Source of the DNA: Pseudoruegeria sp. HB172150
GTDB taxonomy: Bacteria; Pseudomonadota; Alphaproteobacteria; Rhodobacterales; Rhodobacteraceae
DNA: 64,000 nucleotides
Assembly (NCBI RefSeq): GCF_013184805.1
Contig: NZ_JAATNG010000007.1
Span: forward strand, 186,001-250,000
Direction of reading: 5' to 3'
This document shows, in pieces, positions 14,017 through 16,673 of the stretch. The stretch's first letter is position 1, and the number at the start of each line of letters is the position of its first letter. The notes beneath the pieces are model-generated. The model did no database searches and had not been told where the DNA came from. It saw nothing but the letters and a program-made list of their open reading frames with translations. The translations under genes and the position numbers were made by a program.

Positions 14017-14111
14017 GGCTCCTGCATAGGCGCAAACCGGTTAACAACCGGTGCAAACCCGGCCTGCCTGACAGATTGACGCAGATCAATGTAATCGCCG
14101 CCGCAGCTCAT

Positions 14112-14138
14112 ATATTCATATTCGGGAATTTGAATATG
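14112..14138. promoter_or_regulatory. ArsR-family (SqrR/BigR-like) operator, two overlapping ATTC-N8-GAAT sites
   Basis: CATATTC (14117-14123) and GAATATG (14132-14138) form a perfect inverted repeat separated by eight bases. It contains ATTC-N8-GAAT. A second ATTC-N8-GAAT overlaps it at 14114-14129. This spacing and sequence is the motif known for the sulfide-sensing ArsR-type repressors SqrR of Rhodobacter capsulatus and BigR. The 3' half touches the ribosome site GGAGGG (14138-14143) of the TsoY-like gene, so binding would block that gene's expression. No such regulator is encoded in the window. Confidence 0.65.
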
Positions 14139-14147
14139 GAGGGTCAG

Positions 14148-15362
14148 ATGCCCCGTACCGCAACTCGTCCGGCGGATCGCTATTCGCCACTCTACTTCCT
14201 CGGCGCGCTGGGTGCCGGGGGCCTTGCCGTCACCTTCTTCATGTACCTGATGTTCTGGGTGCCGCATCCCGGCCGCGCCGTTCCGAACTTCGAGGATATC
14301 GCCGCCACATTCACCACCGGCGGCCCTGCCATCCAGACAGCCATCGCCGTCGCCATGGCCGGCATCGCCGTCTTTGTCGTGCTGCACTTCAAGTCGCTGA
14401 TCTGGAACCTGCGCCAGTACAGCGCCTTCAAGAAAACAGAGGCTTATCAAAAGCTGAAAGCCTCCAACGCCGAAACTCAGCTTCTCGCGATGCCGCTGGC
14501 ACTGGCGATGGCGATCAACGCCGGTTTCGTCGCCGGGCTGGTCTTCGTTCCGGGGCTCTGGTCCATCGTCGAATTTCTGTTTCCCTTCGCCATGGTCGCC
14601 TTCACGGCGGTGGGCATCCTTGCCCTGATCATGATCGGCGACTTCCTTGGCCGGGTGCTGACCAAGGGCGGCGTCTTCGACGTCACCGCCCATAACAGCT
14701 TCGCACAACTCCTGCCGGCCTTCGCGCTGACCATGACAGCCGTCGGCTTTGCCGCCCCGGCCGCCATGAGCACTGTGCCGCTGACCCAGGGTATCAGCCT
14801 GATCGGCTCCACCTTCTTCGGCATGGCCGGCGTGATCTATGCCGCGGTCGCGGCGATCACCGCGTTCAACTCGATGCTGCACTATGGCACCGCGAAGGAA
14901 TCCGGCCCCACGCTGATGATCATCGTGCCGCTTTTGACGATCCTCGGCATCCTCGCCATGCGTCAGGGCCACGGGCTGCACGTCTCTTTCGATGCCCACG
15001 CCCAGGCCGCCGACACGCTGATGTTCCTGACCCGGATCGTCGCCGTGCAGGTTCTGTTCCTGCTGCTTGGCATGCTGGTTCTGCGCCGGCAGGGCTATTT
15101 CCAGAGCTTCGTCTTCGGCTCGGAAAATTCCCCCGGCGCCTATGCGCTGGTCTGCCCCGGCGTCGCGATGAGCGTGATGCTGCACTTCTGGATCAACAAG
15201 GGTCTCGTCGCCAACGGTCTGGTCGAGAAATTCTCTACCGGCTACTGGGCGCTGACCGCTCTGGCGATCGCCTTCCAGATCGCGATGATCTGGCTGGTCT
15301 TCCATCTGAACCGGCGGCATTTCGGCAAACCCGTCGCCGGCACGGCGGTTCCCGCCGAGTGA
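14148..15362 (+). CDS. Multi-spanning membrane protein, TsoY-like
   Basis: A 404-residue integral membrane protein with about ten hydrophobic helices. Key landmarks are the N-terminal SPLYFLGALGAGGLAVTFFMYLMFWVPHPG, the loop PNFEDIAATFTTG, and the C-terminal WINKGLVANGLVEKF segment. I recall this type of protein being annotated as TsoY family and resembling TDT/SLAC1-type transporters, but the name is tentative and no substrate is established. The ATG at 14148 has GGAGGG four bases upstream; the frame extends 24 codons further through the operator, which is unlikely to be coding. Regulation by a sulfide- or persulfide-responsive ArsR repressor is suggested by the overlapping operator. Confidence 0.65.
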   Translation: MPRTATRPADRYSPLYFLGALGAGGLAVTFFMYLMFWVPHPGRAVPNFEDIAATFTTGGPAIQTAIAVAMAGIAVFVVLHFKSLIWNLRQYSAFKKTEAYQKLKASNAETQLLAMPLALAMAINAGFVAGLVFVPGLWSIVEFLFPFAMVAFTAVGILALIMIGDFLGRVLTKGGVFDVTAHNSFAQLLPAFALTMTAVGFAAPAAMSTVPLTQGISLIGSTFFGMAGVIYAAVAAITAFNSMLHYGTAKESGPTLMIIVPLLTILGILAMRQGHGLHVSFDAHAQAADTLMFLTRIVAVQVLFLLLGMLVLRRQGYFQSFVFGSENSPGAYALVCPGVAMSVMLHFWINKGLVANGLVEKFSTGYWALTALAIAFQIAMIWLVFHLNRRHFGKPVAGTAVPAE

Positions 15363-15366
15363 ACTC

Positions 15367-15398
15367 GATCCCCCGGTCCGGCAACGGGCCGGGGGATC
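15367..15398. terminator. GC-rich hairpin between convergent genes
   Basis: GATCCCCCGGTCC (15367-15379) pairs with GGGCCGGGGGATC (15386-15398) around a six-base loop, just after the TsoY-like stop and overlapping the last codon of the converging EEP gene. There is no strong T tract on either side, so efficiency as a terminator is uncertain, but its position fits a bidirectional transcript end. Confidence 0.55.
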
Positions 15399-16539
15399 AC
15401 AACTGCCCGCGCTTCTCGCGCAGAAAGTCCAGCGAGTCGTCGATCTCCAGCTCGACCCAGATTGGATAGTGATCCGACAGCTGGTTCTCCCGCCAGGTAT
15501 CGAGATAGTAAGTCCGCAGCTCCCCCTCGTCCCCCGCCAGATCCTTGTCGCCGCCGTAATCCTCCAGCATCTCGGCGCGGTAGGTGGCGACATCCTCCGC
15601 GCGATAGACAAATCCGAACGGGTCGAAGACACCGCCACTCTCGGCGCCACCGCTGAGAGCGAACCGAAAGTAATCGTTGGCGCGAAAAAACATGCGATCA
15701 TAGGTTTCGACCGGCCCGTCTACCGCATCCGCCGGCCGCGCATTCGTCGGCTTCCCAACCAGCCCGCCATTCTCCACATAGCCAGCCGTCTCCAGCGCCG
15801 TCACGTTCGCCTGATCCTTGGAGCGGTAGAAATTCATGTCTCCCACCAGCACCAGGTTGTCCGACCAGAGCCCCCGCCGCTTCTTCTCCAAAGCCGCCAA
15901 CAACAGCCGCACCTCCTCCGACCGCAGCCGCACCGCGTCCCGCGTATCGCTCGGCTCCAGATGCAGGTTGATCATCGCGAACCGCTTCCACGCGGTGACG
16001 AACCCGGTCATGAACGGCGCCCGCGCCAGCTGTTCCAGCTCCACGTCCGCCTCACCCGGCACCGCCTCGCGCAATTCCTTCCAAAGCGCGATCTCGCCTG
16101 CCAGCCCCGAAAGCTGCACGCGGTTCCTGTTGTAGACATAGGCAGAGCGTTCGTCGTTCCCGGCCACGCCTTCGGTCACGTCATTGACCAGATAGCTCCA
16201 GTCCGGCCCCAGCAGCCGCATCACCTGATCGAGCTGCAGCAGCTTCGACTTCACCTCCTGAATGGCGATCAGATCGAACGTCGCAAGGATCTCGGCGATA
16301 TAGAAATAGGCCTCGTCCAGCCGCTGCTGGCTGGTGCCGAAATTCTTGATGTTCCAGCTCGCGACAAGCAGGTTCGCCTCGGTGCGCCGCGACGGAACCG
16401 CCGCCTGCAGCCCGGGCTTCAGCCGCAGCAGGCCGTCGATGCAGCGCTTTCGCGCCTCCACGGTCATGTTCGGGAATACGCGCTCGAAATCGCGCTCCTT
16501 GAAATCCGCCTCCGGCCGCAGGTCGTTGTAGAATGGCAT
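15397..16539 (-). CDS. Endonuclease/exonuclease/phosphatase (EEP) family protein
   Basis: A 380-residue member of the DNase I/EEP superfamily of metal-dependent phosphodiesterases. The ordered motifs are visible: VASWNIKNFG (about 64-73), FDLIAIQEVKS with the metal-binding Glu (about 98), the INLHLEPSD block, LVGDMNFYRS (Asp/Asn pair) and the terminal LSDHYPIW with the catalytic Asp-His. No signal peptide is seen, so it is probably cytoplasmic. Substrate could be nucleic acid, a phospholipid or another phosphodiester. The start at 16539 has GGGAGGG upstream; the frame extends to 16665 without support. It is divergent from the GNAT gene at 16674. Confidence 0.85.
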   Translation of the reverse strand: MPFYNDLRPEADFKERDFERVFPNMTVEARKRCIDGLLRLKPGLQAAVPSRRTEANLLVASWNIKNFGTSQQRLDEAYFYIAEILATFDLIAIQEVKSKLLQLDQVMRLLGPDWSYLVNDVTEGVAGNDERSAYVYNRNRVQLSGLAGEIALWKELREAVPGEADVELEQLARAPFMTGFVTAWKRFAMINLHLEPSDTRDAVRLRSEEVRLLLAALEKKRRGLWSDNLVLVGDMNFYRSKDQANVTALETAGYVENGGLVGKPTNARPADAVDGPVETYDRMFFRANDYFRFALSGGAESGGVFDPFGFVYRAEDVATYRAEMLEDYGGDKDLAGDEGELRTYYLDTWRENQLSDHYPIWVELEIDDSLDFLREKRGQL

Positions 16540-16673
16540 ACCCCAATCCCTCCCGGTCAATGCGCGTCGATCAATCGACGCCAGCCTAGCACGCCTCGTC
16601 GCGCACTGGTCCGGAAATACCCACACAGTCGATATCCCTTGCGCGCGCCCGCAACCGGCTGTCATCTGTCGCG

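Follow-up and report, generated by a model that had tools for sequence, protein, structure and literature searches.

A tsoY gene of Pseudoruegeria lies behind an FNR box and a conserved SqrR/SoxR-type operator and encodes a membrane protein of predicted TehA/SLAC1 fold

Results

Operator upstream of tsoY

We analyzed a 64,000-nucleotide stretch of the genome of Pseudoruegeria sp. HB172150 (contig NZ_JAATNG010000007.1, positions 186,001 to 250,000; hereafter the window, in which plain coordinates are given) with regard to tsoY, a plus-strand gene at 14148–15362 for a 404-residue membrane protein of the TsoY family, and to the regulatory elements directly in front of it. A previous sequence-only reading of this DNA had pointed to two overlapping ATTC-N8-GAAT motifs upstream of the gene, one of them extended to CATATTC-N8-GAATATG, and both were located. 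Register 1 (ATTCATATTCGGGAAT, 14114–14129) is the one whose spacing from an FNR box recurs among relatives (see below), and register 2 (ATTCGGGAATTTGAAT, 14120–14135) follows at a 6-bp offset; neither is tied to a strand. Register 2 forms the core of an extended inverted repeat at 14117–14138, CATATTC-GGGAATTT-GAATATG, in which the 7-bp arms are perfect and the central 8 bases are unsymmetrical. As an observation the inverted repeat is confirmed. Its proposed overlap with the ribosome-binding site amounts to one shared base, 14138, since the GGAGGG motif occupies 14138–14143 on the plus strand, with the tsoY ATG at 14148–14150. The motif equals the deduced binding site of SqrR in Rhodobacter capsulatus, ATTC-N8-GAAT, as given in the cited passages of PMC9774250, in keeping with its earlier assignment as a SqrR/BigR-type operator. 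Across the 5.06-Mb genome the tsoY site is the sole exact (zero-mismatch) ATATTC-N8-GAATAT and one of 8 strict RYATTC-N8-GAATRY sites.

The operator is conserved among relatives. A genome scan yielded 204 loci encoding a TsoY relative, of which the best 80 served as the orthologue set; they bear the names of Rhodobacteraceae genera or are filed as unnamed Alphaproteobacteria, Rhodobacterales or Paracoccaceae. ATTC-N8-GAAT was found upstream of tsoY in 59 of the 80, as compared with 0 or 1 for spacers of 4–7 and 9–13 bases and with a mean of 0.19 (maximum 2) in 500 mononucleotide shuffles; conservation at this level makes the operator more than a product of chance. Control palindromes were recovered from 8 (GAAT-N8-ATTC), 7 (GAAT-N9-ATTC), 17 (TTCA-N6-TGAA) and 22 (TTCA-N12-TGAA) upstreams, and most of these derive from the operator itself: 7/8 and 6/7 of the first two are the gaps separating two neighboring operators, and 17/17 and 19/22 of the last two start at operator base 2. 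For 8 of 644 further gene starts called in these loci a site lies within 130 bp, and all eight belong to divergent lipoprotein-like neighbors sharing the tsoY promoter region. The 75 operator sites contain 67 distinct N8 spacers, so that the half-sites are kept while the spacer sequence varies, and the flanks lean to A[TC]-ATTC-N8-GAAT-[AG]T. At the fixed 8-base spacer, the distance from operator to start codon ranges from 27 to 94 bases.

Two operators occur in 16/80 loci. The 6-bp offset of the window is found in only two of them (L047, L048), and in the other 14 the paired operators are non-overlapping and 23–25 bp apart (L067, L072, L080, L082, L085, L087, L090, L092, L095, L096, L099, L101, L108, L126), an arrangement which suggests two bound dimers. 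Where the operator is missing, some orthologues show another palindrome (TGACCATGTCA or TGATCATGTCA), located in L089 and L118 about 67 bp before the start, with a similar one in L168; this is perhaps the site of another regulator.

FNR box and promoter layout

FNR boxes take the form TTGAY-N4-RTCAA. One such match, TTGACGCAGATCAA, a predicted FNR/FnrL-type site absent from the sequence-only reading, lies at 14076–14089 on the plus strand, with its center 39 bp from that of operator register 1 and 45 bp from that of register 2. When the 80 loci and the window were taken together, the box was present in 22/81 upstreams, as against 0 or 1 for the other spacers from 2 to 8, and three scrambled controls gave 0 at spacer 4, one of them giving 1 at spacer 8. 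Fourteen upstreams bear both elements, and the distance between centers is 39–40 bp in 10 of these, the window (through register 1) included, and 21–22 bp in the remaining 4, of which two contain a further operator at 45–46 bp. The genome encodes FnrL (P0001), which scores 435 bits against NF045989 (cut-off 300).

At class-II FNR promoters the start site lies 41.5 bp from the box center. On this geometry we place the tsoY start site tentatively near 14124, with TATATT (14111–14116, plus strand) as a candidate −10 hexamer read from the sequence, and the operator would then cover the start. Cumulatively, the layout suggests that the tsoY promoter is activated by FnrL and repressed by SqrR/SoxR.

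Candidate repressors

The SqrR/BigR homologue that the sequence-only reading calls for is present. Among 18 PF01022 matches in the genome, one protein (L127:9734-10150) scores 139 bits over the ArsR domain to the 13ct/6o8l chain (6o8k-o), which we take to be R. capsulatus SqrR, and has retained both Cys66 and Cys132; a second homologue, SoxR, is encoded in the sox cluster (L229:4614-5069) and is 74% identical to the first. With a strong SqrR/SoxR-type gene defined by a best E ≤ 1e-30, such a gene was found in 42/43 TsoY-bearing and 70/106 TsoY-lacking genera (149 genera, counted by hand from the result tables; Fisher p 1.4e-5, kinship ignored). The operator occurs in genomes with a single regulator of either kind, non-sox (G037, G098) or sox-linked (G007, G126; in G142 a sox-like setting at a contig end), and for this reason we name the class SqrR/SoxR and not one protein. 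Two genomes without a strong regulator (L114, L120) are also without the exact operator. Ten further TsoY upstreams, partly from genomes already among the 80 (G126 is L053), gave a similar mixture: G065, which has a weak regulator only, is without the operator, which is present in six of the remaining nine and absent from three (G011, G017, G134) despite a sox-linked regulator. The cited passages of PMC9774250 also describe a katG promoter that is bound by YgaV and does not contain ATTC-N8-GAAT.

Operator sites elsewhere in the genome and the genus

Genes were called with a codon-score caller that misses some genes, and the status of a site as coding or intergenic depends on these calls. By this measure 6/8 strict sites of the genome are intergenic and near a gene start, and 2/8 lie in coding sequence. 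The six stand at tsoY, a pdo-DUF442/SQR-SulP operon, a YeeE/YedE pair, a SLAC1/TDT gene, the trxC|DUF2254 interval and hemA. A search of the genome for the same operator had been proposed along with the sequence-only reading; among the sites found is one at sulfide genes, the pdo-DUF442/SQR-SulP operon, which is preceded by ACATTC-N8-GAATGT; the names SQR and PDO are the best NCBIfam matches and lie below equivalog cut-offs, and the TIGR01244 domain is above its own. The full A[CT]..[AG]T flank is found at 3/41 core sites of the genome, namely those of tsoY, pdo and YeeE only. The YeeE/YedE promoter (L227 5926-5982) moreover repeats the layout seen at tsoY, with an FNR box (TTGACCTGCATCAA) and the operator center 42 bp away.

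Four other genomes of the genus, three of which are apparently those of L047, L048 and L049 and not independent of the 80 loci, contain 23 strict sites, 19 of them intergenic. Fourteen of the 23 lie upstream of PDO (4/4 genomes), tsoY (3 genomes, 4 sites), TDT (3) or a gene of 70 codons (3) whose product is presumably DUF2892-like. A PF03595-positive SLAC1/TDT gene with an upstream ATTC-N8-GAAT is present in this genome (L140/L220) and in three of the same genus (L217, L218, L222); in L219, from another genus, the SLAC1/TDT gene has no ATTC-N8-GAAT.

Further sites were noted. ATTC-N8-GAAT occurs twice in or beside the sox cluster (L229 6825 and 16058), before soxX and near a metallo-beta-lactamase gene. 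One strict site (L134 1581; G000:C1:1195978-1195997) lies 67 bp before a gene which we take to be hemA (5-aminolevulinate synthase), Pfam giving Aminotran_1_2 only. Another (L230 4792; G000:C1:330289-330308) lies between trxC, for thioredoxin-2, and a DUF2254 gene. Neither the hemA nor the trxC site is among the strict sites of the four same-genus genomes. In R. capsulatus TrxC reduces SqrR, according to the cited passages of PMC10044876, and an operator at trxC would therefore make for a possible feedback loop.

Family and predicted fold of TsoY

The window protein matches the TsoY family model NF047644 over its full length with 533 bits (cut-off 150). Its score against the selenoprotein TsoY model NF047643 is 56 bits, below the cut-off of 250, and its frame runs without an internal stop and has Cys at position 336. 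An AlphaFold2 model was built from 49 sequences of the protein's own family (alignment A1, the window protein with 48 of the 80 loci, hand-picked for diversity and completeness) and shows ten long helices with a pLDDT of 86.8 and a pTM of 0.87. When this model was compared with known structures by VIA-align, rows 1–22 were all TehA, SLAC1, SLAH1 or SLAH3 (Z 24.8–29.6), the TehA rows covering about 296 residues at a root-mean-square deviation of 2.8, and row 23, an unrelated design, followed at Z 14.0. Foldseek likewise ranked TehA first (probability 1.00, E 1.7e-3). At the level of sequence, PF03595 is the only Pfam match of the window protein at E ≤ 1 (E 0.01) and is listed at that threshold for 4/49 members, at best with 9.8e-5. 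TsoY is thus predicted, from its model, to be a fold relative of TehA/SLAC1, and by score it is not filed as a member of PF03595. Of the earlier proposal of a TsoY-like sulfur transporter, the family stands and the transport role fits the SLAC1 anion-channel fold, which that proposal did not contain; sulfur as the substrate is the part that we infer. The literature searched, which did not cover the naming paper, gave no described TsoY function.

A His275-Gly276-x-His278 motif (14970–14981), where the seventh long helix ends, was noted in the same alignment. HG-x-H is invariant in 49/49 sequences and could coordinate metal or heme or be part of the lining of the pore mouth.

A cysteine at the position of the gating phenylalanine

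In the cited passages of PMC10645844 and PMC11050165, TehA F262, the equivalent of SLAC1 F450, is the gate on transmembrane helix 9 (TM9), and the next residue of SLAC1, P451, is a helix breaker. The F of WAFSFG is residue 262 by count along the TehA chain. We aligned the SLAC1-type proteins from 14 of 18 SLAC1 loci (A2; L211, L215, L221 and L223 were omitted for a short or missing gene call), and in these the gate column is Phe in 14/14 and the following residue Pro in 13/14, with SP seven and eight columns earlier in 8. In TsoY the segment SPG(A/S)YALVCPGV opens the ninth long helix with the same spacing from SP to Pro as in the SLAC1-type proteins; the TM9 gating Phe is absent, and the residue aligned with it is Cys336 (codon at 15153–15155, plus strand). 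The same register is found in a profile alignment which is not significant overall. C336, P337 and V339 are invariant in 49/49 sequences, G338 is G in 48/49, and three distant relatives retain CPGV.

The selenocysteine (Sec) motif of selenoprotein TsoY is UxxV (PMC13188914, cited passages), and C336-P-G-V339 fits it. No Sec-bearing TsoY was found, with 0/299 genomes above the NF047643 cut-off, and the equivalence of Cys and Sec consequently rests on the motif as given in the cited part of that source.

Neighborhood of tsoY

In the window tsoY is preceded by promoter elements of its own, and its downstream neighbor is convergent (15397–16665, minus strand). Between the two, after the tsoY stop, lies a 14-bp perfect stem-loop (15367–15398, plus strand, −32.9 kcal/mol) which is not followed by a T run and was not listed by the terminator scan. 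The cobalamin location of the gene had been called unexpected. It is in fact common to many relatives, as cobO follows tsoY within three genes in 42/80 loci and cobN lies upstream in 31/80, with different neighbors in other loci; we regard this position as shared ancestry and not as evidence for a B12 role.

In a phylum-wide sample of 398 genomes TsoY was found in 12, three of them outside the family Rhodobacteraceae. In one of these three (G334) tsoY, a SLAC1/TDT gene and a gene for an octaheme cytochrome of the tetrathionate-reductase family (TIGR04315, 588 bits, cut-off 375) stand side by side, and DUF442-SQR, SulP and rhodanese genes follow some kilobases further on the same strand. Another (G303) has an FNR box 83 nt in front of tsoY.

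Discussion

We think it probable that FnrL activates and SqrR/SoxR represses a tsoY gene that encodes a SLAC1-fold channel letting out a sulfur anion; binding of the repressor, the response to sulfide, the start site, the direction of flow, the substrate and the role of the Cys we infer from the computational results above. The mechanism would be as follows. SqrR and/or its paralogue SoxR, persulfide-sensing ArsR repressors, would occupy the operator on the −10 and start region of a promoter activated by FnrL and serving tsoY only. As long as oxygen is present and sulfide absent, the dithiol repressor would cover the start site and FnrL would be inactive. Once oxygen declines and sulfide or sulfane sulfur accumulates, FnrL would recruit polymerase, sulfur would bridge the two cysteines of the repressor, the repressor would release and TsoY would be made. 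As an anion channel or facilitator, TsoY would then most likely export a small sulfur anion, in the first place sulfite or thiosulfate and possibly hydrosulfide or polysulfide, arising from the activity of SQR and persulfide dioxygenase, whose genes would be under the same control. In its pore an invariant Cys, or Sec in selenoprotein TsoY, would replace the gating Phe of TehA/SLAC1.

Several observations weigh against this account. Counts of the bare core are at chance, both in the window (2 vs. 0.71 expected, with 20/100 shuffles reaching 2) and in the genome (41 sites vs. about 56 scaled from the window expectation), and were dropped as evidence. The exact operator was not found in 21/80 orthologue upstreams, nor the strict FNR box in 59/81, and a sigma-70 consensus scan gave no tsoY promoter. 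None of the three out-of-family tsoY genes (G334, G303, G158) has an operator upstream, and no recognizable sulfur genes were found near that of G158. Loss of the operator did not significantly track loss of the regulator: of 50 loci chosen, 48 genomes were searched (L075 and L095, both operator-positive, were left out), and a strong regulator was present in 27/27 operator-positive and 19/21 operator-negative ones (p 0.19). The SqrR homologue itself scores 94 bits against the BigR equivalog NF040642, below the cut-off of 155, and is not filed as BigR. With respect to the protein, the 15.4 bits to PF03595 fall short of the gathering score of 27.9, no Foldseek match reached E ≤ 0.001 and the profile-profile comparison of TsoY with SLAC1 was not significant (P 0.057 and a probability of about 1% after the addition of 3 distant sequences). 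A profile search of PDB sequences with TsoY found nothing. Proof of SLAC1 kinship by sequence thus failed, and the kinship is based on the predicted fold.

A more far-reaching form of the export reading, which we put forward tentatively and hold to be rather unlikely, is that TsoY represents a new class of SLAC1-fold channel with a thiol or selenol gate, in which sulfane sulfur would open the pore by reacting with its Cys or Sec, so that the channel would act as a self-limiting relief valve for sulfur anions at low oxygen. Persulfide chemistry would then be used twice, in the de-repression by SqrR and in the opening of the channel.

Other functions of TsoY are conceivable under the same regulation. 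The invariance of a single Cys in 49/49 sequences and its fit to the Sec motif UxxV, the invariant HG-x-H and the octaheme cytochrome, SQR and rhodanese genes near the G334 tsoY would also fit a thiol or selenol membrane protein of redox or sulfur-transfer function, in which Cys336 or Sec takes up sulfane sulfur or hands it on and no ion passes; however, known channels have the fold predicted here and the Cys is aligned with a pore gate, and we therefore judge this function unlikely. The direction of transport could also be inward, as with YeeE/YedE-type proteins, for example to bring in thiosulfate for Sox. The YeeE/YedE genes of this genome do have an upstream ATTC-N8-GAAT, one with the same FNR-box layout, and sox genes with SoxR are present, but the pdo/SQR operon under the same site serves detoxification. 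Further, in plants channels of the TehA/SLAC1 type serve efflux, and outward flow of anions is favored where a channel is not coupled to energy, which leaves import, in our estimation, quite improbable. That the inverted repeat is bound instead by an unrelated dimeric regulator, or acts in the RNA as a hairpin at the ribosome site, and resembles a SqrR operator by accident, could be argued from the shortness of a 4+4-base core, from its frequency in the genome irrespective of pathway and from the orthologues without a site, but a spacer of exactly 8 bases at so variable a distance from the start is unlike a ribosome-site hairpin, and the recurrence of the same strict site at PDO, SQR, YeeE and TDT genes makes this very improbable.

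Taken together, the sequence-only interpretation is partly supported: its regulatory side stands up, and the regulated protein is more interesting than it had stated. TsoY, a named (seleno)protein family, gains a regulon with a persulfide repressor and a low-oxygen activator, a predicted SLAC1-type fold and a testable Sec/Cys residue at the gate. If the export reading is true, it offers a candidate export route for the sulfur anions made by sulfide-oxidizing bacteria under low oxygen, as well as a reason for selenium in a channel.

The searched literature yielded no report linking TsoY to SqrR or SLAC1, with no search pairing SqrR and TsoY, and TsoY and SLAC1 are unmentioned in the main texts of the SqrR/YgaV papers searched, supplementary gene lists lying outside that scope. 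With the SqrR regulon of R. capsulatus (and with BigR, YgaV, SoxR and sHdrR) the system described here shares the ATTC-N8-GAAT operator (PMC9774250, cited passages), the two-Cys ArsR repressor and the operator on the pdo/SQR operon; it differs in the FNR box beside the operator and in the two paralogues, SqrR and SoxR. In common with the TehA/SLAC1 anion channels (TDT family, PF03595), TsoY has the predicted fold (Z 28–30 over about 300 residues), ten long helices and the TM9 register of gate residue and Pro, whereas it falls below the PF03595 cut-off, has Cys336 in place of the gating Phe and is 404 residues long vs. 314 in the TehA chain. With selenoprotein TsoY (NF047643) it shares a CPGV that fits the Sec motif UxxV, while having Cys and not Sec. 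Finally, the bigR operon contains a gene for a TauE-related sulfite transporter (PMC5823870, cited passages), a membrane transporter gene under the class of repressor that is proposed for tsoY; tsoY differs from it in its predicted SLAC1-like scaffold, in being a stand-alone gene and in its FNR box.

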